Below are positions 9,239 to 33,872 of a stretch of 64,000 nt of DNA, piece by piece. The position numbers were made by a program, and so were the translations under genes. Below the pieces are notes generated by a model. The model saw only the letters and a program-made list of their open reading frames with translations, did not search any database and had not been told where the DNA came from. Location: assembly GCA_964035015.1 (NCBI GenBank), contig OZ036002.1, forward strand, positions 14,469,199-14,533,198, in the 5' to 3' direction. Every line of letters starts with the position of its first letter. Position 1 is the first letter of the stretch. The DNA comes from Corallium rubrum. Its lineage: Eukaryota > Cnidaria > Anthozoa > Scleralcyonacea > Coralliidae.

Positions 9239-10546
9239 TTGCAACACCAGTTAAAATATGGGGATTACAATACAACAATACCGCTTAAGTATCGGCTCGC
9301 ACAACAACTTTTGCAAAAATGTAAGCAATATCAGAGCAATCTAAAAGGACAATTTTGGAGCGCAATATTCTATTTTTGTTGTTTAAATGTTTTCTGTCCA
9401 TCAGTGTTAACAATTATTTTACAAAGGTGGAAGCGTTTAAATGTGCTTACAGGTTGGTTTGCTAAATTATTTTGCTTAAATGTGTATCTACCATTCTTAC
9501 TAAATGTTGAAAATGATGTCGAAGAAAATCTAGGTCCAACGATATTCAACATTAATCCTAGTAAAACCATGTGTGCTGACTTTAGTCAACAAAGTGCAAT
9601 GTCGTACAACCTGTATGCTTCACTTTTGTTGATAATGGCAAACGACATTGAGAAAAATCCAGGTCCTGCTCTACTTGAGATAATTAATCCAACAAAAACA
9701 ATTTGTGCTAATTTTAGTCAAGGCAATGAAAGTATATTTGGACAAAATGCAGGTAAACAATGCGTAGCCATGTCTTTGTCTGCGATAATACATAATCAAA
9801 TAAAACGTATCACTACATGGGATTCAACATTTTTGAATACCATATTGTGTGCAGGAAATAACCTTTATAGTTTTATTACCAATTTTATAAATAAAGACTT
9901 CTTACTATTAACTGATGTTCCAGAAATGATTTCAGTGCATGAGAAAGTCTATCATTTACAATACAGTGACCCCTTTGCTGGTGAAATATTTATGACTAAA
10001 GACAATCAACCTTTTTATTCCCTAACAACTGTTTTTAATAAATTGTTCTCCGAATCACAATATAATTATCAACATTGTTTGTTGACCCTTGACTGTAATA
10101 CGGTGGCAGTATTCAAGATGTCTGATGAAAGCTTTAAAATCTTTGACTCTCATGCAAGAGATACATATGGCATGCCAGACGAATCTGGGCAATGTGTGTT
10201 AATTTCAATCGAATCTTTAGATAACCTGGTGCTATATTTTCAAAACATTTACCTTCAAAATGTTGTTACACCCTTTGAAATCAAGGGAGTCAAATTACTA
10301 AATTTAGAAACCCATAACAATTACAATCCCACTTTATTGCATAACAATGGATGTGTATTTGTCAATCAAAATGAACTTCACAATAATGTGGCCCCACAAA
10401 ATAGGGACAAAACACAAAATTTTAAAATAAGTAACAATACAGAAAGTAGGCAAAAAACCCTGTCAAAACGTAGAGAAAAATACAAAGAGAGGAGAAATGA
10501 TGAATCTGCTGAAAAAAAAAGAAAAACGATTAGCAAAAGCATGTGA
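9239..10546 (+). CDS. Helentron ORF: tandem 2A motifs plus C76-like cysteine peptidase domain
   Basis: This is the first coding block of the Helentron. Residues 1-92 are hydrophobic and unrecognised. Residues 93-100 read DVEENLGP and 136-143 read DIEKNPGP. The second is a canonical 2A ribosome-skipping motif, which releases the upstream peptide between Gly142 and Pro143. The first has Leu for the essential Pro. The segment after each motif is also repeated (INPxKTxCAxFSQ), so the module is a tandem duplication. From about residue 160 the ORF resembles the papain-like deubiquitinase fold of peptidase family C76: GKQC with Cys175, then FDSH with Asp303 and His305 as a plausible triad. The C terminus is rich in Lys/Arg. 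A run of nine A at 10512-10520 shifts the frame, and the true continuation is in the next ORF. Peptidase domains are known Helitron accessories; the exact family assignment is my inference. Confidence 0.7.
   Translation: MQHQLKYGDYNTTIPLKYRLAQQLLQKCKQYQSNLKGQFWSAIFYFCCLNVFCPSVLTIILQRWKRLNVLTGWFAKLFCLNVYLPFLLNVENDVEENLGPTIFNINPSKTMCADFSQQSAMSYNLYASLLLIMANDIEKNPGPALLEIINPTKTICANFSQGNESIFGQNAGKQCVAMSLSAIIHNQIKRITTWDSTFLNTILCAGNNLYSFITNFINKDFLLLTDVPEMISVHEKVYHLQYSDPFAGEIFMTKDNQPFYSLTTVFNKLFSESQYNYQHCLLTLDCNTVAVFKMSDESFKIFDSHARDTYGMPDESGQCVLISIESLDNLVLYFQNIYLQNVVTPFEIKGVKLLNLETHNNYNPTLLHNNGCVFVNQNELHNNVAPQNRDKTQNFKISNNTESRQKTLSKRREKYKERRNDESAEKKRKTISKSM
9515..9538 (+). other. Degenerate 2A-like motif (NLGP)
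   Basis: The codons read D-V-E-E-N-L-G-P. The Leu codon CTA is one base from the Pro codon CCA, so a single C-to-T change would account for loss of the NPGP core. Skipping activity is predicted to be lost or very weak. Confidence 0.75.
9644..9667 (+). other. Canonical 2A motif (NPGP)
   Basis: The codons read D-I-E-K-N-P-G-P and follow the usual hydrophobic lead (YASLLLIMAN). This matches the D(V/I)ExNPGP consensus exactly. It would split the N-terminal 142 residues from the peptidase-containing remainder during translation. Confidence 0.85.
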
Positions 10547-11360
10547 GCGTGCCAGAGAGAGGCGAAAAAATGAGTCTGATGAAAGTAGAGAGAAAAGATT
10601 AACCAAAAATCGCCAAACACTTAAATTAGGAAAACAAAATGAATCCACCCACACTAGTGTAAAAAGATTGGCCAAAGAGCGTGAGAGGGTTAAACAAGCT
10701 AGACAAAATGAATCTTTTGAAAGTAAAGAAAAGAGACTAGTCAAAAACTGTGAAAGGATGGAAGTAACTAGACAAAATGAATCTTTTGAAAGTAAAGAAA
10801 AGAGACTAGTCAAAAACTGTGAAAGGATGAAAGTAACTAGACAAAATGAATTTTTTGAAAGTAAAGAAAAGAGACTAGTCAAAAACTGTGAAAGGATGGT
10901 AGCAGTTAGACAAAATGAATCTTTAAAAAATAAAGAAAAGAGACTAGTCAAAAACTGTGAAAGGATGGTAGCAGCCAGACAAGATGAATCTTTTGAAAGA
11001 AAACAAAACAGACTAGTCAAAACCCGTGAAAGGATGGAAGTAACTAGACAAAATGAATCTTTTGAAAGTAAAGAAAAGAGACTAGTCAAAAACTGTGAAA
11101 GGATGGTAGTAGCTAGACAAAATGAATCAGCAGACACAAAGAAAAAAAGACTATCACAGGTGCAAGAATATAAAAATAACAAAAGCATACAACAATCAAA
11201 GACTGCGACTGACATAATAAGTGAATTTCACAATGCTGTATCACAAGGGCCTCTTTACATTTGCACATGTTGTGATCAATTATGGTACAAACATATTAAC
11301 ATAGTGTTTGCCTGGCAGAAAAAATCCGGCTATCAAATCCTGACTCAATCAAATACCTGA
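10497..11360 (+). pseudogene. Helentron basic repeat region and zinc-binding motif (frameshifted continuation)
   Basis: After the A9 run the coding frame moves here. The segment is dominated by a highly basic, probably helical repeat of 23 residues (69 bp). Its core is NESFESKEKRLVKNCER, repeated about seven times between roughly 10690 and 11130 with few changes. Similar Lys/Arg/Glu repeats precede the Rep domain in other Helitrons, where they may bind nucleic acid. Near the end CTCCDQLWYKH gives a Cys-x-x-Cys typical of Helitron proteins. A further frameshift at about 11290 ends the ORF early; the frame continues through WLCQSCKKYLRK at about 11390-11420. The near-identity of units suggests recent repeat expansion or gene conversion. 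Confidence 0.7.
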
Positions 11361-18780: not shown

Positions 18781-18908
18781 TTTTTACGGGTCGTTACGAC
18801 CCGTCAAAGTAGCATACGACCCGTAACGACTTGTACGGATCGACAACATTTTCGTGGCCTACCTTAGCCACACTGAATATATATTCTAAGAGACACCCCC
18901 CCCACACC

Positions 18909-18940
<32 letters not shown>

Positions 18941-19077
18941 TTCTTCCACTCCCCCCATATATACGGGTAGTACGAGCCGTAAAAACAACACATACGACCC
19001 GTAACGACTTGTACGGCTATAACACAACATTTCACGAAACTAACGACCCGTATGCTTTCCACAGTATTGGACAACCA
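18781..19077. repeat. Distal end of insertion I
   Basis: One and a half further satellite units are broken by a C-rich low-complexity tract (about 18895-18935), then the diverged right terminus with ACGACCCGTAT and ACAGTATTGGACA. The 19009 start of the downstream ORF lies in this repeat and is not a real start. Confidence 0.8.
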
Positions 19078-20400
19078 TCAGAAAATAACATGGCAGATTC
19101 AAATGATGATGGTTTTAGTGAAGATGAAGCAGAAATACCTGCAGGGGTCACTGATAGTATGCTAACAGCTACTGACTTTCTTAATGACAGCGAACGAGAG
19201 AAAATTCATAATGTTGCACCTGGAGAAGGAAATAAACCACTCAGTATATTCCGAGATAAATATTCAGAAGAATTAGCTTACCCTGGAATATTCTTAGGTC
19301 AAAAAAGACCAGAAGACAGACAGCGGTTAGTTAGTGTTTACTACAGTGATATTTGTAAATCTGAATTGAGAAGGTCTGACCGAAGAGCTGCCATGTGTGT
19401 TGAAAATATTTTTTTCAAAACTAAAAAGCTACAAATGAAAATCTTGTTAGGAAAATCTCAAATTGCTTTAAGAAAATGTAAGCAAGGGAATAACCAAACA
19501 ATAACAGCTGGTCATTTAAAGCAACAGGGTGGTTTAGAAAGACTTATTCACCATGATGAAGGGTATAAGTTCTTAAGAGCATTGAGAGGCTCTCCACCAT
19601 ATTTTGAAAAAGCAAAAAAAGACTTGTTTGCTATGATCTGACAACTAGGTCCAGCAACATTATTTTGTAGCTTTTCATCAGCTGAAACAAAATGGATCCA
19701 TTCGCTCAGAATACTTGGTAAACTTGTTGACCATAGAGACTACAGTGATAATGAGCTAGAAAACCTAAATTGGGATGAAAAATGTAGATTAATTCAAAGT
19801 GACCCAGTAACTTGTGCAAGACATTTTGACTATCAATTCAATACATTTTAAAAAAAATTCTTAATGAGCAACATTGCACCCGTAGGAAAAATTAAAGATT
19901 GGTTTTACAGAGTAGAATATCAACAAAGAGGCTCACCACATATTCACATGCTAATCTGGCTAGAAGGGGCACCTGTATTTGGAGTTGATGAGGATGATGA
20001 TGTAATATCATTTATTGACCAAATTATTACTTGCCAAAAACCAAACAATAATTCCGCACTACTTGATCTTGTAAATAGACAGACTCACAGACATTCTCAC
20101 ACTTGCCGTAAAAGGTCAAAAAATGTGTGTAGGTTTAATTATCCACAACCACCGATGAGCACAACTAAAATACTATATCCTTTAGACAACAACTTTACTC
20201 CAACTGGTATAAAAAAACTGAAAGAATCATGGAAAGATATCTCAAAAACACTAAATAACGTCAAAGAGGGAGAAGATATCAGCTTTGATCAACTTATGAG
20301 TGATTTAACTGTGACTGAGGAAAAATATATTTTAGCAATTAGATCATCTTTTAATTGTCCTACCATATTTTTAAAAAGAACACCAAATGAACTAAGAGTC
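19078..20400 (+). pseudogene. Helentron Helitron-like N domain and HUH Rep, N-terminal half
   Basis: The Helentron frame resumes at SENNMADSN. The sequence has Helitron_like_N features: PLSIFRDKYSEELAYP, LRGSPPYFEKAKKDLFAMI, then a TGA at 19639-19641 where related proteins have Arg (a CGA-to-TGA change fits CpG decay). After a second break near 19850 comes the Rep HUH motif, GSPHIHMLIW (about 19930-19956), with two His coordinating the metal for DNA nicking. A CRFNYPQPP segment follows. Coding stops at NELRV where insertion II enters at 20401, and resumes as [16 protein letters not shown] at 30938. Two stop/frame lesions make it non-functional. Confidence 0.8.
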
Positions 20401-20409
20401 CCCTGGTAG

Positions 20410-22748: not shown

Positions 22749-22754
22749 GTCATG
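22749..22754. repeat. 6-bp target-site duplication, left copy
   Basis: GTCATG here and at 28974-28979, directly outside the two TIRs. Confidence 0.9.
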
Positions 22755-23016
22755 TATGGTGGCCTAGGAGTGCCATAAGAATTTTTGATATATTTATTAT
22801 TATTTTTTTTTATTTTATTTTATTTTTATTTAAAAATTAATTTTTTTATTTTTGAATATTTTTTTATTTTATTTTTTTTAAATAAAGAAATACTTTTTAT
22901 ATTTTATTTTTTGTTTTTAAAACGTTTTTATTATAAGAAAAAAATTTAAAAAAATAAACAAATAAAAATAAAATGAAAAATTTGGCAGCCTATGAGTGCC
23001 ATAACCATAATGCTTT
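22755..23016 (+). repeat. Left TIR of the IS3EU-like transposon
   Basis: 262 bp. The outer 35 bp and inner 30 bp are ordinary sequence containing AGTGCCATAA twice (outer and inner, as AGTGCCATAAG and AGTGCCATAACC). The middle is extreme A/T-rich DNA. Inverse of 28708-28973 with only a few differences. Confidence 0.95.
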
Positions 23017-23079
23017 GAGGGTGGGGTGGTGGGGACAAACATGTGTGTGTATTGTACGATTTTACATGTATATCGGATC

Positions 23080-24369
23080 ATGTCGAATAAAGCAAGAAAT
23101 AACAAGAAGTGGGCGGATTTTAAGCAAAAGCATGCTGAAAAGAGACGTAAAACAGACGAGAAGCAGCCAGATGCTGTGGACGACTTAACTGTTCCAAGAT
23201 TGTCTGCTGAGGTCGAGGGGAAATGCCAGAAATACAGTCGAATTGGGCCGTTAGCTATCGTGCCGTTCCCTTATGATGCATTAACGCTTGACAACATCAA
23301 GAATGCGTGCAAAAGTTATTTTGATGTGGCATCCTTTATGGCATGCGACGTGCTGGCAGGTGAGAGAGGGCCGTCGTACACGAGCATAGATCAGATAAAA
23401 AACTTTAAACTGTTGCATGTAAGATTTTACTTTGACGACAAAGAGACTGAGCCTGAGGAAGGTGGTGAAGCCTTCGGTTCCAGTAGTACTTGTAGTCCAA
23501 CAGTGAAGAAAGCTAAACTGAAAAAGATTGATCTTACTACAAAAGATGTTGAATCACGAAGATCTTTGCCTGTTGAATCCCCCAAAAAGGTCGTGCAGCA
23601 TTCAGCATTTCCAAAATCAGTGTCTCTGAGCACGCTTCTTCAACTTGGCAAGCTGATCCCTCCTGCATGTGACCAGGAGATCATCGAACTTTACCTTGAA
23701 GAGTTTTCTATGGAAAAAAAAGAATGGCTTGTGCCATTTTCAGCCAAGGTATCTGTGAGTAAGTCACCTTTTTCCAGTGGAGCCTTTAGAAATGCCTTTA
23801 ACGCCCAAGCCATCTCTGGTCTGAAAGGAAGGTATGTTCTTATAAAACGCTACAAACCTGATCAGATCCAATCCATAGAAGATTTATTTGGGTCTTTGGA
23901 TAATCATACAAGAAAATCTGTGCAAATGAATAGTCTGGCAAGATATTATGCCATGCTGTTGGAGAAAGAGAGCTCTATCCATGCAGAGTATGGAGAAACA
24001 TTCAAGTATTCTAAAGTGTATTTAGGCAGGAATGACCATCAACTTGTAACCTTGGAGTTATACCTGGAAGGTGAGTTCATCAAGTACATCAACAATGATG
24101 GAAATATTGTGGTTAGTGGAAGCGAGGTTGCAGACAAGGCAGAAGCATTCACACATTTTACATATGTGAAGTCAGAAAAAGCAATTATGGTTTTGGATAT
24201 CCAAGGAACTGGGTATGGTCTATGTGACCCAGAAGTGGCAAGTACCAAGCTTCTGGATGATGACAGTCAGACCATACTATTTTGCTGTGGAAATCTGTCC
24301 ACACAAGCAATAGAACAATTTTTATCAGAGCACAAGTGCAACAAATATTGTGCCCTTCTTGGTATATAA
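23080..24369 (+). CDS. Alpha-kinase family protein kinase (transposon cargo)
   Basis: 429 residues from the ATG at 23080 (MSNKARNN...). An upstream in-frame ATG at 23026 would add 18 unlikely residues. The N terminus is basic. Residues about 50-125 form an unknown conserved-looking domain (IVPFPYDALTLDNI, FKLLHVRFYF), followed by an acidic/serine linker. The C-terminal part has alpha-kinase (MHCK/EF2K-type) hallmarks: ATP-binding Lys256 in YVLIKRY; LEGEFIKYINNDG at about 329-341; catalytic-core HFTYVKSEK and VLDIQGTGYGLCDPE with Asp373; and the zinc site GNLSTQAIEQF...HKCNKYC with His418, Cys420 and Cys424. All key residues are present, so an active serine/threonine kinase is plausible. The stop overlaps an AATAAA at 24368. 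The gene is a single exon, lies 63 bp inside the left TIR and points toward the transposase. Its substrate is unknown. Confidence 0.85.
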   Translation: MSNKARNNKKWADFKQKHAEKRRKTDEKQPDAVDDLTVPRLSAEVEGKCQKYSRIGPLAIVPFPYDALTLDNIKNACKSYFDVASFMACDVLAGERGPSYTSIDQIKNFKLLHVRFYFDDKETEPEEGGEAFGSSSTCSPTVKKAKLKKIDLTTKDVESRRSLPVESPKKVVQHSAFPKSVSLSTLLQLGKLIPPACDQEIIELYLEEFSMEKKEWLVPFSAKVSVSKSPFSSGAFRNAFNAQAISGLKGRYVLIKRYKPDQIQSIEDLFGSLDNHTRKSVQMNSLARYYAMLLEKESSIHAEYGETFKYSKVYLGRNDHQLVTLELYLEGEFIKYINNDGNIVVSGSEVADKAEAFTHFTYVKSEKAIMVLDIQGTGYGLCDPEVASTKLLDDDSQTILFCCGNLSTQAIEQFLSEHKCNKYCALLGI

Positions 24370-25568
24370 TAAACTCCATGTGAATACTTCAATAACCTTA
24401 GACAACATTCAAATGTAACTCTGTTTGAAAACCAGTATGTTGAGTTTTATTCCTGTTTCTATCTGAAGCATGTTATACATGTACAATACAGTACAGTAAT
24501 GGTGGCACCATAAATGTCTTAAAATTGGTAGGGGGTTACATCCTTGATAAAAATGGTAAACTGGGGATGGAAAAAGATTGGACTGATGACTGTGATTTTC
24601 CTTCTAGATCATTCTATTTTCCTGACACTTTTTTTCCAGATGAGGGCCTGGGTTCCCCATTCCAGTGCCACCATTTTCTGTTTGGTGCTTTGTAGTGGAT
24701 TGTTAAAGTTATTAATATTTACACCAGAAAGAGATACAGTAACTGCATTGTGAACTCTTGGAAATTGACAATAAATTTTGATATTTTTACATTTAAATTG
24801 ATATACATGTAAGCTAACAGTACAACTTTCTTTTCCCTGTTAAACCCAGTCATCTAAGTTTGCAATACCTGATCTAGGGAATGTATATATATAATTGTTG
24901 GGGGAATGCTGTTCCCCCTAATCATTTGGCCAGGATACAGTGATACACCCATTAACTTTCATGACCAGTGGCCACGCCAATTTGATTATTATGACTAGTG
25001 GCCATGCCCATTTGACTTTGGTGAGTGTTCCCCCACTTCTAAAACGTGAAAAACATCACTGATATATAGTATCTTCAGGTTCAAGTATATTATTAATGAC
25101 AATGGCATCATTTTTCATATACATGTATACTGTAGTCAAGTGAATGCAGCTTTGTAATACTTACTACAATTCGTATTTCACATTTCTATAACAGCTTAAT
25201 TAACTGGTTTTGAGGAGATGAAACGTGCCTACATGTAGGCAAATCTAAACCAAGTTCTTTCACTCCTTCCAACAGTGCCATTGCATCATTGACAGTTAAT
25301 TATCTATGATAAGTTCCAAATTTGGATAGTTCAATGGGTTCTCAGGGTTGGAATCAAGTGAATATCTGCAATTTGCACCTTAGTTAGTCAAATGAGAAAA
25401 ACTGCACATTGCATGCGTACAAATGCAAAAGAATTTTTAAAAAGTAAATTAAATGACCAAGTTTTCCAAAGCTCTTTATTTTAAAAGAGATTAAACATTC
25501 ATTTTCCTTCAACTAAGTTGAACCTTGGGTGCTACTTTTAAAACTAATCAAATAAATCTTACAGTAGT
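24370..25568. other. Spacer between the two convergent genes
   Basis: No gene seen. Plausible 3'-end signals exist for both genes: AATAAA at 24368 and 24771 for the kinase, and AATAAA (minus strand) at about 25474 for the transposase. A small hairpin with GGGGGAATG and its inverse lies near 24900. Confidence 0.5.
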
Positions 25569-28500
25569 TCAGGCTAAATTTGCTTTAAGATACAAGTATG
25601 CATCTGCAGCCTCTGCAGGTTTAATTTCATCTGTGTCAGGAATAAGTACTTCACAGCGTGCTCGAAATGCTGGATCCAAAAAGTCATCAGTTCCTTCCAA
25701 AACACCTGATAATTCAGCAACTTCCCTCAAATGTTCTTCATTGATGACATGACCACACTTGTCACCTCCATACCGTTCAGGAAAGCTATAAACATGGTCT
25801 GGTATTCCAGTTGGAAGTTGTTTTTTTGCTTGCTTTCGGCCACGATGACTATTCCACACTGTTTCTCTAAAAATGTCCAGTTCCCTTTGAACAACTGGAA
25901 TGTACACAAATGCAAGTAAATCTCTGAAAAAAATAATTGTACAGTACCACAGTTTAGCAGAAAAAATAATCTACTGAATTAATGCTCCTTGTATACTCGA
26001 GTTGCAAGCCATTAGTCAACCTTACGGAATGACTGTCAGAGGTTGAGTTAAACAATGGCTTAACTGGTACTGTACTACATGTAAACTTTATTAAATATTA
26101 TGGCTAGGATTTGAACCCACAATGTTCAGTTTACCAGTCTGATGCTCTACTAACTGAGCTACAAGGTCAAGTTAGGAGCAAGTTGTGGTATGATGGTAAC
26201 CTTATTCTCCACATGCACAATCCCACATAATTTAATGCATCACATGTATACATGTAGGGCCTACCAGTACTACCTGTGAAGGGGGTCATCTCTTTCATAA
26301 TCACCATCTTCTAACAGTTTCCTGAGTTGATCCTTAAAGAATCTTTCCAGTCTCTCCAAAAGCTCTTTCCACCATCTCTCTATCTTGTTTTCTGTAGAGG
26401 GGCCATATATCACACAGTCTGCTGCATCTTGAGTATCACAGTGCTTACTAAGGAGATATGAATGCATAGTAGCCATATCCACAGTTTCAGTCCCCTTATC
26501 TAGGCGTAGGCGTGATGGCATTACTATAATCAGATGATACAGTAATCAGACTAAGATTGTCATTTTTTAATTTTTCTCATCTGGTCACCTTCAAAAATAT
26601 ATTGATTATTATGTTATTGTCATAATGCTGATTAAAGCATGGGGTTGACCTTTGCTATGGAGTCACTAACTTACCTCTAGATTCAAACAAGTATTCCAAA
26701 TAATACCGACCAACAACTTTCGGATTGTTGTTTGATGTCCAGATACGAAGAAATTGTATTCTGCCACTATAAGTGTCTAATCCTCCATAGATGCATAGTG
26801 GAAATGTGGCTTTCTGATAGCCACATAACTTATCATGCCCATCAAGAGACATTGTCCAATCTGAACCCTTAAAGAGACAATACATATATACAGTTTCTGT
26901 CCAGTATAACATATTGGCTCCATACAAGAGGCACATCACTCCACAGGCACAGAAAGGTGTACAGGATTTTTTGGGATTATCTTAATATTTTCCCACACAT
27001 TTTATGGATTTTCTAGGACTTTCAAGGGATTTTATGAAATTTTCCAAGATTGTCTTCAAATGTTAAGAGATGTAAAGGATTTTTTCAAAAGTGAACAAGA
27101 TTTTTTTGAGTGATGTGCCCCCAGGCTGAGGTCCCACATCTGTCATGTACACTGGTCCAATAATTACATGTACAGTAAATATATACTGACAGTACATACA
27201 GTAACCAGGCCTTGAAATTTGGGGGCATAATTATGTTCCCAGGGTGAACCAAACATGGCATAATTTTTATCTAATAATATAAATAAATAATAAATAATAA
27301 TTTTTAATAATACAAAGTTTAGATCCAAAATACAGAACATTCTTAAACTTGATTCCTAAACGTTTGATTGAATTTTACTTAGAATTATTAAAAATGTCTT
27401 ACACTTTCCATGTCTTAGATATTAGTAGTTATTGACCATTATTTTTTATACAACTTTATTCTGTTGTTTTAAATTTAACACAGGCCCTCCATTGATAACA
27501 GTATGCTTATATATACTGAAGGAGTACATCTGTTATAAATTTTGTTACATGTAATAATAATAATATAATAAGAAATATATAATAATGAGCTAATAATATA
27601 ATAATACAGTAGCATTATATTTATAGTATATATTGTAGTAATTTAATTGTATTTTTGTAAATATTATATACTAATATATCTTAATAGGTAATATATGATT
27701 ATCTATGATGGTGTAAATAGTAGAATTCTAATTCTAGTAATATGTAATTCTAGTTACCAGGCTGTTTGAATAAAGTATTATTATTCTTTTTATTATTATT
27801 ATTATTATTATTAATAATTAATTATTTTTTAATTTTGTATTATAATTATATACAGTAATTGTATACTTAGGCATGCTATAAAAGTATAAAACTCACTGGT
27901 GGTACTTGGTTACAAGAACACTTTTTTTGTATTTTAACTAACTTTAAATTTAGTAACTCTGAACTTACTAGCTGCAAATTATAGTACATATAAAGCCCAG
28001 TGATTCCTGACTTTTTTCTCCAGACCCTTCTTGTAATCCCTATTGCCAGAGATGAATGACCCTCATGCAGTCACTCAGGTCCTGGAAATTAGATTTTTCA
28101 TGATGTGAAACTAGTCTTACCATTGCAACCATATTGATAAACATCTTTTAGTTGCATATATCTACAATACATAACATTACCTTTGATGTAAATACACCTT
28201 TTGGAGCTTGTCTCCGCTTGCCAACACCACTTCTTTCTTCCAGACCTCTGGGATCCACTTCAGCCATCATAGCATACACAACGTCCCTTGGCACTTTTAG
28301 GTGATGAATTTCCCGAATCTTTTTGTGCAAGGCACGATATCCTAGCAATTGTCCAGGTCCCTTCATCTCTTCCTGCACTGCAACCTGTACATCGTTCAAA
28401 TCTGTTTGATAATCTATGTACCTGATGTTGAAATGACTCAATCGACGACAGAGTGCGGATACTCCATGCGTACATTGGGTACTTGTCGGAAACAAAATCT

Positions 28501-28610
28501 AGTATTTCTTTCCTTTTAAGGTTTTGTTTGACGTATCTTTCCAAATCTTCTTTAAGCTCTTCGTCGTTTTCCCAATCACTGTTCATTATTCGCGGATTTA
28601 TCGATGTCAT
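25569..28610 (-). CDS. IS3EU-like DDE transposase (integrase core), four exons, one frame offset
   Basis: Exons on the minus strand: 28610-28181, 26867-26675, 26523-26274 and 25923-25569. All introns are GT-AG and phases match (0, 1, 2). The product is about 408 residues if one base (28448) is skipped. The N terminus (about 1-143) carries a helical DNA-binding-like region with WSIRTL then RRLSHFNIRYID, and GYRALHKKIREIHHLKVPRD, typical of IS3-type integrases. The catalytic core shows Asp152 (SLDGHDKL), Asp216 (RLRLDKGTET) and Glu256 (ENKIERWW), giving DD(39)E. A C-terminal HRDLLAFVYIPVVQREL segment completes the family pattern. Length and order agree with full-length relatives. The single offset at 28448 could be a recent mutation or a translational frameshift; the rest is intact. 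It starts 98 bp inside the right TIR. Confidence 0.85.
26101..26168 (-). other. tRNA-derived sequence in transposase intron 3
   Basis: On the minus strand there is a good A box (TAGCTCAGTTAGTAGAGC), an anticodon-arm-like segment with loop CTGGTAA (anticodon GGT would be Thr) and a B box (GGTTCAAATCC). The acceptor stem does not pair and the T stem has mismatches, so this is a tRNA pseudogene or SINE head, not a working tRNA. Confidence 0.55.
26868..28180 (-). other. Intron 1 of the transposase gene
   Basis: A 1.3-kb intron with donor GTAATG and acceptor TTTAAG. The interior (27220-27870) is very A/T-rich with ATT runs. No ORF of note and no nested element with clear ends. Confidence 0.65.
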
Positions 28611-28707
28611 CCGAAATTAAATATTGTTTGTTTGCAATGCAAAAATTCGCGCTTTAAAAGACCACTGAACCACACATTACGGGCTCATTACACGCTTGCC
28701 TTCAAAT

Positions 28708-28973
28708 AAAGCATTATGGTTATGGCACTCATTGGGCTGCCAAATTTTTCATTTTATTTTTATTTATTTATTTTTTTAAATTTTTTTCTTATAATAAAAA
28801 CGTTTTAAAAACAAAAAGTAAAATATAACAAGTATTTCTTTATTTAAAAAAAATAAAATAAAAAAATATTCAAAAATAAAAAAATTAATTTTTAAATAAA
28901 AATAAAATAAAATAAAAAAAAATAATAATAATAAATATATCAAAAATTCTTATGGCACTCCTAGGCCACCATA
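28708..28973 (-). repeat. Right TIR of the IS3EU-like transposon
   Basis: 266 bp, inverse of 22755-23016. Small differences are confined mostly to homopolymer lengths in the A/T-rich middle. Confidence 0.95.
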
Positions 28974-28979
28974 GTCATG

Positions 28980-29620: not shown

Positions 29621-29945
29621 TTCCTAGTAGGATCCTACACAGGATCCTAGATTTCTTGGTAGGATCCTACGCAGGATCTTAGATTTTGTTGGTAGGATCT
29701 TACTCAGGATCCTAGATTTTCCTGCTAGGATCCTACTCAGGATCCTAGATTTTCCTGCTAGGATCCTACTCAGGATCCTAGATTTTCCTGCTAGGATCCT
29801 ACTCAGGATCCTGGATTTTCCTGGCAGGATACTACTCAGGATCCTAGGTTTTCTTGGTAGGATCCTACTCAGGAACCTAGATTTTCTTGGTAGGATCCTA
29901 CTCAGGATCCTAGAATGTCTAGTTTTAAATATTATGGTATCCTTC
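29621..29945. repeat. Right array A: 36-bp GGATCCT-containing tandem repeat
   Basis: About eight units of roughly 36 bp, each TAGGATCCTACTCAGGATCC plus TAGATTTTCCTGC or close variants. The minus-strand 107-residue ORF through it is periodic and spurious. Confidence 0.9.
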
Positions 29946-30066
29946 ATAAAAAGATCTTCGTATTGATTTCAGGATGTTCCCTAACAAAGATTCTGAGTTC
30001 CCTAACCAAGATTCTGATTATAGGCTTCTGTAAAGCTTAGAATCCTGTCAGGACCCTGGTTAGGAT

Positions 30067-30430: not shown

Positions 30431-30935
30431 GTTAGGATCATGTTAAGTTTAGGATCCTGTCAGGATATTGATTAGGATCCTGCATAGCTTCCTCCTGTAG
30501 TAACACTGAACCAATAAGAGATACTCCTTAATACTTGACTTCCAGAGAGAACAGCTTAAATATGACTGCTAAGGCTATTCAGTATAAATAAAGCTAATTT
30601 AGTTTACTCTAGTTTCTTCCTCTAGTAACACTGTTAAGGATGCTGTCAGGATCCTGGTTAGAATCGTGCGAAGTTCAGGATCCTAGGTTAGGATCCTGTT
30701 AAGTTTAGGATCCTGTCAGGATCTTGATTAGGATCCTGCAAAGTTCAGGACGTTGTCAGGATCATGGTTAGGATCCTGCTAAGTTCAGGATCCTGTCAGA
30801 ATCCTGGTTAGGATCCTGCTAAGTTCAGGATCCTGTCAGGATCCTGGTTAGGATCCTGTTATATTTAGGATCCTGACAGGATCCTACAGGATCCTGTAGG
30901 ATCCTATAGGATCCTGTTTAGGATTTCTACCAGGG
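30431..30935. repeat. Right array B: GGATCCTG subterminal repeats and right terminus
   Basis: Repeats of the form GTTAGGATCCTGCTAAGTTC and CAGGATCCTGTCAGGATCC, closing with the inverted terminus AGGATTTCTACCAGGG. Confidence 0.9.
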
Positions 30936-31714
30936 TCAATAATTATAACCCTGCATGTCTGAGTGCATGGCAAGCTAATATGGATATTCAGTATGTTCTT
31001 GATGTTTATGCTTGTGCAATGTACATAGTTTCATACATTTCCAAAGCACAAAAAGGAATGAGTGAATTATTGCGAAAAGCTTGTGATGAAGCAAAAGAAG
31101 GTAATGCTAGTATTAAACAGCAAGTAAGAGACATTGGCAATAAAATTTTAAAGAGTGTAGAAATTAGTGCTCAAGAAGCAGTTTACATTGTTCTTCAATT
31201 ACCAATGAGAAAATCATCACGCCAAGTTGTATTTATTAACACATCACCTCCTGATGAAAGAGTTCAGCTCTTAAAACCAATTAGTGAGATTCAAGAAATG
31301 GAAGATGAATGTGAAGAAATTCATTCGGGTGGGCTTTTAAAACGATATGTTGACCGTCCTACTTGCTCACAAAATGTTACTTTAGCTGATTGGGCAGCAT
31401 GGTATGATTCATGTGGAAAACCCTTCCACAAAAAAACAACAAAATTAGATATTGATAATCTTCCAATAGAAACAACAGTTGATGATGAAAATAATGATGA
31501 TGAAATATCTGATCAATTTTTCAAAAACAGTGAAACAAGTAAGAAAACTAAAAAACGATCAAATGCCAGAATCATTAGAAGTGTCTGGTTTAATAAAGAA
31601 TCTCAACCAGAAAAGCATTATCATGAGCTCATTATGCTCTTTACTCCATGGAGAAATGAAGCAACTGATTTAATCAAAAATTGTTCCTCTTACAAAGAAC
31701 GCTTTAGCCGATGA
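30936..31714 (+). pseudogene. Helentron Rep C-terminal part with catalytic Tyr motif
   Basis: The frame resumes as [22 protein letters not shown]. The Rep nuclease motif follows: [15 protein letters not shown] (about 31015-31060), with two Tyr and a Lys in the Y-x3-Y-x2-K arrangement that forms the covalent DNA link in rolling-circle transposition. Further typical blocks are [13 protein letters not shown] and the domain linking Rep to helicase ([31 protein letters not shown]). A frameshift near 31705 ends the ORF; the frame continues, broken, into the acidic linker. Confidence 0.8.
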
Positions 31715-32551
31715 AATTGCTGAACAGATGAACCAATATACATTATACAGTTTGTGGAGATGACTTGAATGAAATTCAACAACATTTAGACCAGCATGAT
31801 GATGATCAATTTGGACCAATAGCACCAGTTACACAGCATGATGAACTACAAGATGAGAATGAGGGTAATGTTGATTTACATCCTGATTTTAATGAAAGGT
31901 ATGATCTATCAGATGATATTGGTATCCCATCAACATCACTAAATATATAATGAACCTCTTAATTGTGTTAAATGAAATGCAAGATGATGAGTACAGAGCA
32001 ATGGTGCAATCACTAAATAAAAAAAACAAAAGGAGTTTTTCTGTCATGCTTTACACCTTATTAAAACATCTGACAAACCATTTTACTGTTTTTAAGTGGT
32101 GGAGGAGGTGTCGGTAAATTTTACATAACAAAATCAGTCTATCAAGCTGCACTCAAATACTATAACACACGTGCTGGTGAAGATTTTCATCACGTAAAAA
32201 TATTACTATTGGCTCCAACTGGAAAAGCTGCGTATTATTAAAGGTAGCACAGTACACAGTGCTCTTGCAATCCCAGCTAGTCAATCTTTAAAAAATTACA
32301 GACCACTGGACTCCAGTTGGTTAAACACTTTAAGATCTCAACTAGGTGGTGTGAAACTAATATTATTAGATGAAGTATCAATGGTTAATTGGGAACAATA
32401 TGTTTACTGTTCAAATCAACAACCGACTCAAAGACATAAAGGGCAGCAAGGAAGATTTTGGATGTGTTAGCATAATTGCAATTGGAGATTTATTCCAATT
32501 ACAACCTGTATTTGATGGTTATGTTTTCAATGATATCCAAAATTCAGAATA
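31715..32551 (+). pseudogene. Helentron PIF1-type helicase, N-terminal motifs
   Basis: Spread over several frames. An acidic linker with HDDDQFGPIAPVTQ comes first, then the Walker A loop GGGGVGKFYITK (about 32098-32133), LLLAPTGKAA (motif Ia), GSTVHSAL, and the Walker B motif LILLDEVSMV at about 32356-32385. VSIIAIGDLFQLQPV (motif III) follows near 32470-32510. At least three frame changes and a premature stop (31948-31950) show that the helicase is dead. The order and spacing match Helitron SF1B helicases. Confidence 0.75.
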
Positions 32552-33740
32552 TTGCAACTTGCTCCTAATCTGTGGAAAAAATACTTTCATACGTTTGAAC
32601 TTGATGAAATTATGAGACAGCGAGAAAGCAGAGTTTTCGCTGAGATTTTAAACCGACTAAGAGAAGGTAAACATACTAAAAATGATATCATGAAGATTAA
32701 AGAAAGATGTGTTGAAGAAATAAATTGCCCAACAGAAGCTCCTCGTCTCTTCATAAAAAACAATAATGTTGATGAGTATAATGAAACAGTTTATCAAAGA
32801 TTGACAGGAAATAAATACATTATTAACGCACAAGACAGTGTGATTGGAGCTAATTCTGCTGAATTAAGAGACAAAATATTGAGGCAAATACCACACGTTG
32901 CTCTAAGAAACACAAAGCAGCTTGCAACAAACCTACGCCTTGCTGAAGGTCTCAGAACAGAAATTGCATTAAATGTAAGAACTGACGATGGTCTAACAAA
33001 CGGTGCTAGTAATGTTATTAAATTAGTTCAACTACATCAACCACGTAAACCATCTGGTATAATATGGGTAGAGTTTGACGATGAAGATCTTGGAAAGAAA
33101 ACTAGACATGAAAACAGACATCTTTATGTGCAAGGTATACAACGGACATGGACACCAATTAAACCAGTAACTACACAATTTGTTGTTGGTAGAAACAAAG
33201 CAGCTCAAGTAGTAAGAAAACAATTCCCACTTCGTCTAGCAGCAGCTAAAACTGTGCACAGGTCTCAAGGAGATACTCAGACTGAAATTGTTGTCAATCT
33301 TGACACTAAAAGAGCTTTTCCCCATATCCATTATGTTGCACTTAGTAGAGTTACTACGATCGAAGGATTATATGTCACTGACCTGTGTGAAAATAAAATT
33401 GCTGTTGATCCAAAAGTTGTAGCCGAAATGCAAAAGCTAAGGACAGAAAGAAGCTTGCAGCTTTGTTTTACCCCACTTTATGACATCCATCAATCTGAAT
33501 TAAAGGTTTGTCATTTAAATGCTCGATCACTACACAAACATATTGAAGATGTTAGAAAAGACTTTAATTATTCTTCCAATGATATAGCAATATTTACAGA
33601 AACAAGGTTCAGCCCATTCGACGACAATTTAATGGTTTTCAACTATTTAGAAATGACGCCATGTTTAATCAGCATGATAATAGACGACCATACGGTGGTA
33701 CAGCGGTTTACAGCAAGATGCCATTTGTTGAGGGATATCC
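32552..33740 (+). pseudogene. Helentron helicase C-terminal part and start of EEP endonuclease
   Basis: A long open stretch reads the C-terminal helicase region: ELDEIMRQRE, then KTVHRSQGDTQTEIVVNL and HIHYVALSRVTT (motifs V and VI, about 33248-33360). It runs directly into an endonuclease/exonuclease/phosphatase domain: KVCHLNARSLHKHIED, and IFTETRFSPFDDN (about 33590-33625) with the metal-binding Glu. An endonuclease behind the helicase is the mark of the Helentron/Helitron2 branch. After a frameshift near 33650 the correct frame (RRPYGGTAVYSKMPF) runs to 33740, where insertion III interrupts it. Confidence 0.8.
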
Positions 33741-33872
33741 TAACCTGCAATCAGGCCAGTTGTTAAACTATGGCCTGATACAAATGTCGTTAAAACTTCG
33801 TGCAGTACTTCCAGATTTTGGAAGTCGTCCTGATTGGCTATTGCAACAAAGGACTCGATTGATAAGGTTTAA

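Follow-up and report, generated by a model that had tools for sequence, protein, structure and literature searches.

The 64,000-nucleotide stretch of the Corallium rubrum genome analyzed here (contig OZ036002.1; below, "the window") contains at positions 22755-28973 a kinase-bearing DNA transposon of the IS3EU type. Two genes of its own, a spliced transposase of the DDE type and a convergently oriented alpha-kinase, lie between long terminal inverted repeats (TIRs). The pairing of an alpha-kinase with an IS3EU transposase is already in print for fungi and has been little studied. The kinase proves to be an integral part of its transposon lineage, because it recurs beside the transposase across the genome, has diverged alongside it, and is under purifying selection. 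To the published pairing we add a probable ubiquitin-like domain at the N terminus of the kinase and a sister lineage in which a HECT ligase takes the kinase's place. An earlier note on this DNA, made from the sequence alone, had described the kinase as a cargo or accessory gene. It is a genuine element gene under selection, and the word "cargo" proved too weak for a kinase that travels with the transposase.

Boundaries and genes of the window element

The element spans 6,219 bp. Its TIRs, 262 bp on the kinase side (22755-23016, plus strand) and 266 bp on the transposase side (28708-28973, minus strand), are 96.99% identical to each other, and both start TATGGTGGCC, which gives the window copy the termini TATGG..CCATA. 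A 6-bp target site duplication (TSD), GTCATG, abuts the element on both sides (22749-22754 and 28974-28979). The TIRs, the TSD and the two convergent genes, which lie 1,199 bp apart, had all been reported in the earlier note and were borne out on re-measurement. Inside the left TIR, a version of the tip recurs about 226 bp inward (22757-22778 versus 22983-23004, 86%) and is probably a second site for the transposase.

We searched the host genome (474 Mb in 312 contigs) for DNA matching the TIRs, with a search that passes over simple repeats, so that some copies may have been missed. Four copies of the family were found: the window copy (C18), copies on contigs C25 and C20, and a rearranged copy on contig C46. 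Other matches were weak and AT-rich. All three copies with two normally arranged termini have matching 6-bp TSDs (GTCATG in C18, GACAAC in C25, and CACGAG in C20). Because each has its own duplication, a chance arrangement is excluded, and with it the idea that the TIRs are fortuitous. The fourth copy (C46:865-14641) is in two pieces, with terminal repeats in the same direction, GTCATG flanking both termini, and about 8 kb from the last match of one piece to the terminus of the other, which suggests rearrangement by inversion or later insertion. The kinase is present in all four copies found, which rules out stray cargo; copies with the same TIRs and no kinase, named beforehand as a finding that would tell against a kinase-bearing element, were not encountered. 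C18 and C25 have an open kinase frame; that of C20 contains one stop, and that of C46 is broken.

The transposase gene lies on the minus strand in four exons, and all of its introns are GT-AG. Exon 1 (28181-28610) encodes a helix-turn-helix region, exon 2 (26675-26867) the first catalytic Asp (SLDGHDK), and exon 3 (26274-26523) the second catalytic Asp (DKGTE) and the Glu (NKIERWW); exon 4 occupies 25569-25923. When read through, with an X at a frame break in exon 1, the protein matches the Pfam family rva_4 ("Integrase core," PF24764) with an E value of 6.3e-19, and the three motifs are kept across 28 aligned relatives. An integrase-type transposase of 408 residues had been described; the gene type held up, and the length applies only if the break near 28447-28449 is skipped. 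In all three sister copies, exon 1 is uninterrupted over 144 residues; it is broken in the window copy. No HHCC zinc motif was found before the core, and the exon 1 translation contains no Cys.

IS3EU transposases have an integrase core akin to that of IS3/IS481 and lack an HHCC zinc motif ahead of it. IS3EU elements have TA..TA termini (TAYGG..CCRTA in rust members) and 6-bp TSDs; the superfamily, IS3EU/GingerRoot in Repbase, has its termini and TSDs described in the available part of PMC10045372. The window element has TATGG..CCATA termini, and exact 6-bp TSDs were found in C18, C25, C20 and 12 of the 16 further elements considered below. The sequence thus fits the IS3EU superfamily, and the earlier assignment to this type, with its 6-bp TSD, is upheld by the Pfam match, the motifs, the termini, and the TSDs of sister copies.

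The alpha-kinase gene is a single exon of 429 codons without a stop (23080-24369, plus strand). Residues 233 to 424 match Pfam Alpha_kinase (PF02816; E value of 3.8e-34, 118.8 bits versus a cut-off of 21.3); this catalytic domain occupies 23776-24351. Of 126 homologues found, 120 were listed, and 100 of these were aligned with the window kinase; the 20 left out were mostly short or lacked a listed domain. In these 101 rows, the active-site residues named in the earlier note proved conserved: Lys256 in 101/101 and, among rows with a letter at the position, Asp373 in 99/99, His418 in 93/96, Cys420 in 93/95, and Cys424 in 91/94. We take them to be the ATP lysine, the catalytic aspartate and the zinc ligands, respectively. 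The window kinase has one extra residue directly before the ATP lysine compared with the C20 and C25 copies, and its open frame is therefore not proof of an active kinase.

An AlphaFold model of the whole kinase (mean predicted local distance difference test [pLDDT] score of 85.7) matched the fold of the TRP-channel kinase ChaK (1ia9) with an E value of 2.9e-16. Identity in the fold matches was 20 to 25% for ChaK, MHCK-A and eEF2K and 18% for ALPK1; the best PDB matches by sequence were a TRP-channel kinase, MHCK-A and eEF2K. The window kinase has the catalytic fold and active-site residues in common with TRPM6/7, MHCK-A, eEF2K and ALPK1, but it differs from them in this low identity (18 to 25%) and in its probable N-terminal ubiquitin-like domain, in place of which those proteins have other parts.

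The N-terminal segment of about 85 residues (approximately residues 35 to 118; 23182-23433, plus strand) has no Pfam match, and its DxLAxxxGP-type motif is present in 170 of 217 kinase clusters. Modeled alone by AlphaFold, the segment gave a pLDDT of 86.4, and its top Foldseek matches in the PDB were mostly ubiquitin-like, PB1, DIX and RBD domains, all with E values above 0.001. The segment is probably ubiquitin-like (beta-grasp), an assignment we hold with moderate confidence because no Foldseek match fell below that value. A possible nuclear signal is the sequence KRRK at residue 21.

Recurrence and evolution of the kinase-transposase pair

Protein searches of the genome scored part of the candidates, so that the locus counts are lower bounds. 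At least 108 kinase matches merged into at least 96 loci, and at least 109 transposase matches merged into at least 95. A single host kinase gene, which the earlier note had named as an outcome that would undo its proposal, is thereby ruled out. The co-occurrence that it had suggested looking for was evident: 67 of the 96 kinase loci found have a transposase match within 10 kb, 66 of them convergent and 1 on the same strand, versus 0.38 pairs expected by chance for random placement.

We inspected 16 further elements, a non-random choice of those with both sides easily retrieved. They represent about 12 families, since C1a, C22 and C20b are mutually close, as are C1b, C13 and C1c. TATGG-type termini (one mismatch allowed) were found at both ends of 15 elements, and exact 6-bp TSDs in 12. 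Three elements (C51, C22, and C1d) have both termini and an inexact TSD, and in C15 the transposase-side terminus was not found. The same architecture with both termini is thus present in about eleven other families.

We compared the divergence of the two proteins over 12 representatives, in which coverage of the transposase was partial (247 to 427 residues). Kinase and transposase distances were strongly correlated (Mantel r of 0.876; 0 of 10,000 permutations as high), and the kinase evolves faster, with a mean identity of 0.44 versus 0.59 for the transposase. We also estimated the ratio of nonsynonymous to synonymous rates (dN/dS) between kinase copies, a comparison proposed in the earlier note. 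Of 276 pairs, 257 were saturated or had a dS of at least 1.6. The sole well-diverged unsaturated pair had a dN/dS of 0.19, and eleven close pairs from two families had values of 0.05 to 0.41; differences at codon positions 1, 2 and 3 were 0.44, 0.34 and 0.65. On these sequence comparisons, the kinase protein is under purifying selection over longer times.

Named kinase matches outside this genome came from other Cnidaria (Acropora, Exaiptasia, Actinostola, Actinia, Desmophyllum, Paramuricea and Dendronephthya) and, beyond them, from the hemichordate Saccoglossus, the sea spider Nymphon and the limpet Patella, whose protein has a partial kinase domain below the Pfam cut-off. No named fungal sequence was among the matches listed. 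Pairing with a transposase outside this genome was examined within Cnidaria, where four public pairs are linked by consecutive gene numbers or by shared contigs (taken to be the same contig on the basis of equal length); distances among these and the window pair were broadly concordant. The Dendronephthya pair is uncertain because its 4.4-Mb contig has two transposase clusters. We discounted matches at the short lengths 1503, 1640, 1668 and 1686 as coincidental and left out of the count a Patella pair located on a single 80-Mb contig. Scans of IMG/VR with the kinase and with kinase and transposase alignments returned no relatives.

Several points weigh against reading the kinase as an integral gene that serves the element. 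It is broken in two of the four window-family copies (C20 and C46). Among the loci found, with counts again being lower bounds, 29 of 96 kinase loci have no transposase match and 28 of 95 transposase loci have no kinase match, and the expectation of 0.38 pairs presupposes random placement. Two of these transposase loci, L061 and L062, belong to the kinase-bearing clade and have an open transposase; no kinase was found in 9 kb at either, and a terminus was found on the transposase side only. Both are among the 16 unpaired transposase loci that fall outside the set at 29 to 33% identity described below. The covariation of the two proteins is expected from linkage alone and is no sign of protein interaction. 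Moreover, just 4 of the 12 representatives have the same nearest neighbor for both proteins, and the two trees agree in 2 of 9 splits, a level reached by 39 of 2,000 random relabelings; because neighbors and topologies agree this poorly, some exchange of genes between families is possible. Finally, six kinase pairs have a dS of zero with 0 to 5 amino acid changes, and the dN/dS between the window and C25 kinases is 0.54, on three changes only. The youngest kinase copies may be drifting.

Related elements and neighboring repeats

Twelve transposase loci at 29 to 33% identity have no kinase match within 10 kb. We retrieved four of them for inspection (L057 to L060); none has a kinase match in its 8 to 9 kb of sequence, and all four contain a HECT open reading frame (ORF) above the Pfam cut-off, convergent to the transposase. 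Two are complete elements with TACGG..CCGTA termini (TACGGTGGCC): L057:616-5807 (5,192 bp), with the TSD AAAAAC, and L058:3290-8120 (4,831 bp), with the TSD CCCATC. No TIR pair was found in L059 or L060. The HECT frame is broken in both complete elements; the HECT protein also has zinc-ribbon and CUE matches below the Pfam cut-offs, and the transposases of L057 and L058 have an N-terminal zinc ribbon. In a transposase tree rooted by choice on L057 to L059, with L060 left out, these three are separate from the kinase-bearing clade. That every IS3EU-type element needs a kinase was rejected, given that L057 and L058 are complete, bounded by TIRs and TSDs, and kinase free. We found no report of a HECT-bearing IS3EU element in the open-licence literature.

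These arrangements may reflect an accessory slot of IS3EU-type elements, convergent to the transposase and filled by either an alpha-kinase with a ubiquitin-like domain or a HECT ligase, each tied to its own transposase clade and both serving a shared anti-silencing strategy; we see this proposal as evenly balanced. The association of each enzyme with its own transposase lineage would point to a common strategy of modifying host proteins to escape silencing.

The kinase pairing itself has a precedent. The available part of Kojima (2025; PMC12730594) describes, in all fungal TET+ IS3EU families, a TET/JBP gene between oppositely oriented transposase and alpha-kinase genes, which overturns the earlier note's statement that no kinase-bearing member had been described. 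As presented there, the elements of rusts and Tuber resemble the window element in having an IS3EU transposase and an alpha-kinase in opposite orientations, and those of rusts also in their TAYGG..CCRTA termini, TIRs longer than 30 bp, and 6-bp TSDs. They differ in their fungal hosts and in the additional TET/JBP dioxygenase between the two genes, and the likeness is one of described arrangement rather than of kinase sequence. In contrast to the window element, the IS3EU/GingerRoot paper does not bring in the word kinase in the accessible main text (PMC10045372). In rusts, the Alpha_kinase family (PF02816) is described as highly expanded, with 79, 39 and 5 genes counted for three tabulated genomes and 0 for the other seven; this is a large lineage-specific set like the one here, but the accessible text presents it as gene-family expansion, with no transposon link (PMC4469406). 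Alpha-kinase enrichment is also listed in the part of PMC5295586 at hand. Within the open-licence literature, we found the alpha-kinase/IS3EU pairing in print for fungi only, and among the papers naming both an alpha-kinase and a transposase, Kojima's is, by title, the only one on transposons.

Other features lie around the element in the window. Two ORF sets on the plus strand (18877-20409 and 30869-33766) resemble by eye the two portions of a single Helitron-type replication/helicase protein, a label that we presume from familiar motifs. The IS3EU element and its flanking repeats seemingly sit within an older Helitron-like element. Adjoining the IS3EU element is an apparent short-period tandem repeat (29624-29968), open on both strands, with an ILRRILDF-like translation. 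Farther away, an ORF of repeated basic units (RQNESFESKEKRLVKNCERM; 10431-11360, plus strand) is possibly part of another mobile element.

Possible role of the kinase

A two-gene IS3EU-type transposon whose transposase acts at TATGG termini is, as a whole, a reading that we consider quite likely. The transposase would cut and join at these termini; the tip motif, which recurs within each TIR, is its probable binding site. With a basic N terminus and a ubiquitin-like docking domain, the kinase would work in trans in the nucleus and phosphorylate host proteins whose normal effect would be to silence the element or block it. Host silencing and chromatin proteins are its putative targets, a suggestion that we make tentatively and favor over regulation of the transposase.

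We favor a host target because the kinase has the higher rate of evolution of the two proteins. Histone H3 is a target of another alpha-kinase, that of TRPM7. The base composition of the element also argues for a host target, since depletion of CpG is expected of long methylation: within positions 24370-28179, the ratio of observed to expected CpG is 0.04 in the first intron of the transposase gene and 0.14 in the intergenic part, versus about 0.5 in the coding parts of the element and 0.92 in the window as a whole. This depletion fits a long-methylated element, as if its ancestors had been methylated. A host target is favored further because the kinase, the HECT ligase of the sister lineage and the TET/JBP enzyme described for fungi in the available part of PMC12730594 all act on proteins or chromatin.

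Alternatively, the kinase might phosphorylate the transposase itself and so restrict or permit transposition, for instance according to the stage of the cell cycle. Tight linkage, covarying distances, and the convergent orientation of 66 of the 67 neighboring pairs would suit such control. However, L057 and L058 are complete elements with TIRs of the same style, 6-bp TSDs and no kinase, from which it follows that the chemistry of the transposase needs none, and faster kinase evolution fits a host-facing protein better. We regard regulation of the transposase as somewhat unlikely.

The kinase might instead be retained as a beneficial passenger that aids its host cell, or the element by an indirect route, through growth, translation or stress signaling. 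Such roles are known for eEF2K or ALPK1, and the best PDB sequence matches of the window kinase are a TRP-channel kinase, MHCK-A and eEF2K. This explanation is improbable given that identity to known alpha-kinases is just 18 to 25% in the fold matches and that the kinase sits beside a transposase at 67 of the 96 loci found.

Recent accidental capture, in which one transposon picked up a host alpha-kinase once and the gene has drifted since, could account for a family of four copies found, two of them with a damaged kinase (the C20 stop and the C46 frame break). It is very hard to reconcile with 66 convergent pairs, about eleven other families with both termini, purifying selection, kinase relatives in Cnidaria, Hemichordata, Arthropoda and Mollusca (with pairing examined within Cnidaria), and the fungal counterparts in print in the accessible portion of PMC12730594. 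Chance juxtaposition or an assembly artifact, for which we found no supporting point, can be dismissed almost entirely in view of the matching TSDs of C18, C25, C20 and 12 of the 16 further elements.

These findings have consequences beyond this locus. The alpha-kinase/IS3EU pairing is widespread in an animal genome, with at least 96 kinase loci; about a dozen diverged families were inspected, and the active site is conserved. Because of this, large sets of annotated alpha-kinases, such as those named TRPM6-like, myosin heavy chain kinase-like or alpha-protein kinase-like, may be transposon genes. A natural comparison for what such enzymes do for DNA transposons is offered by the HECT-bearing lineage of this genome.

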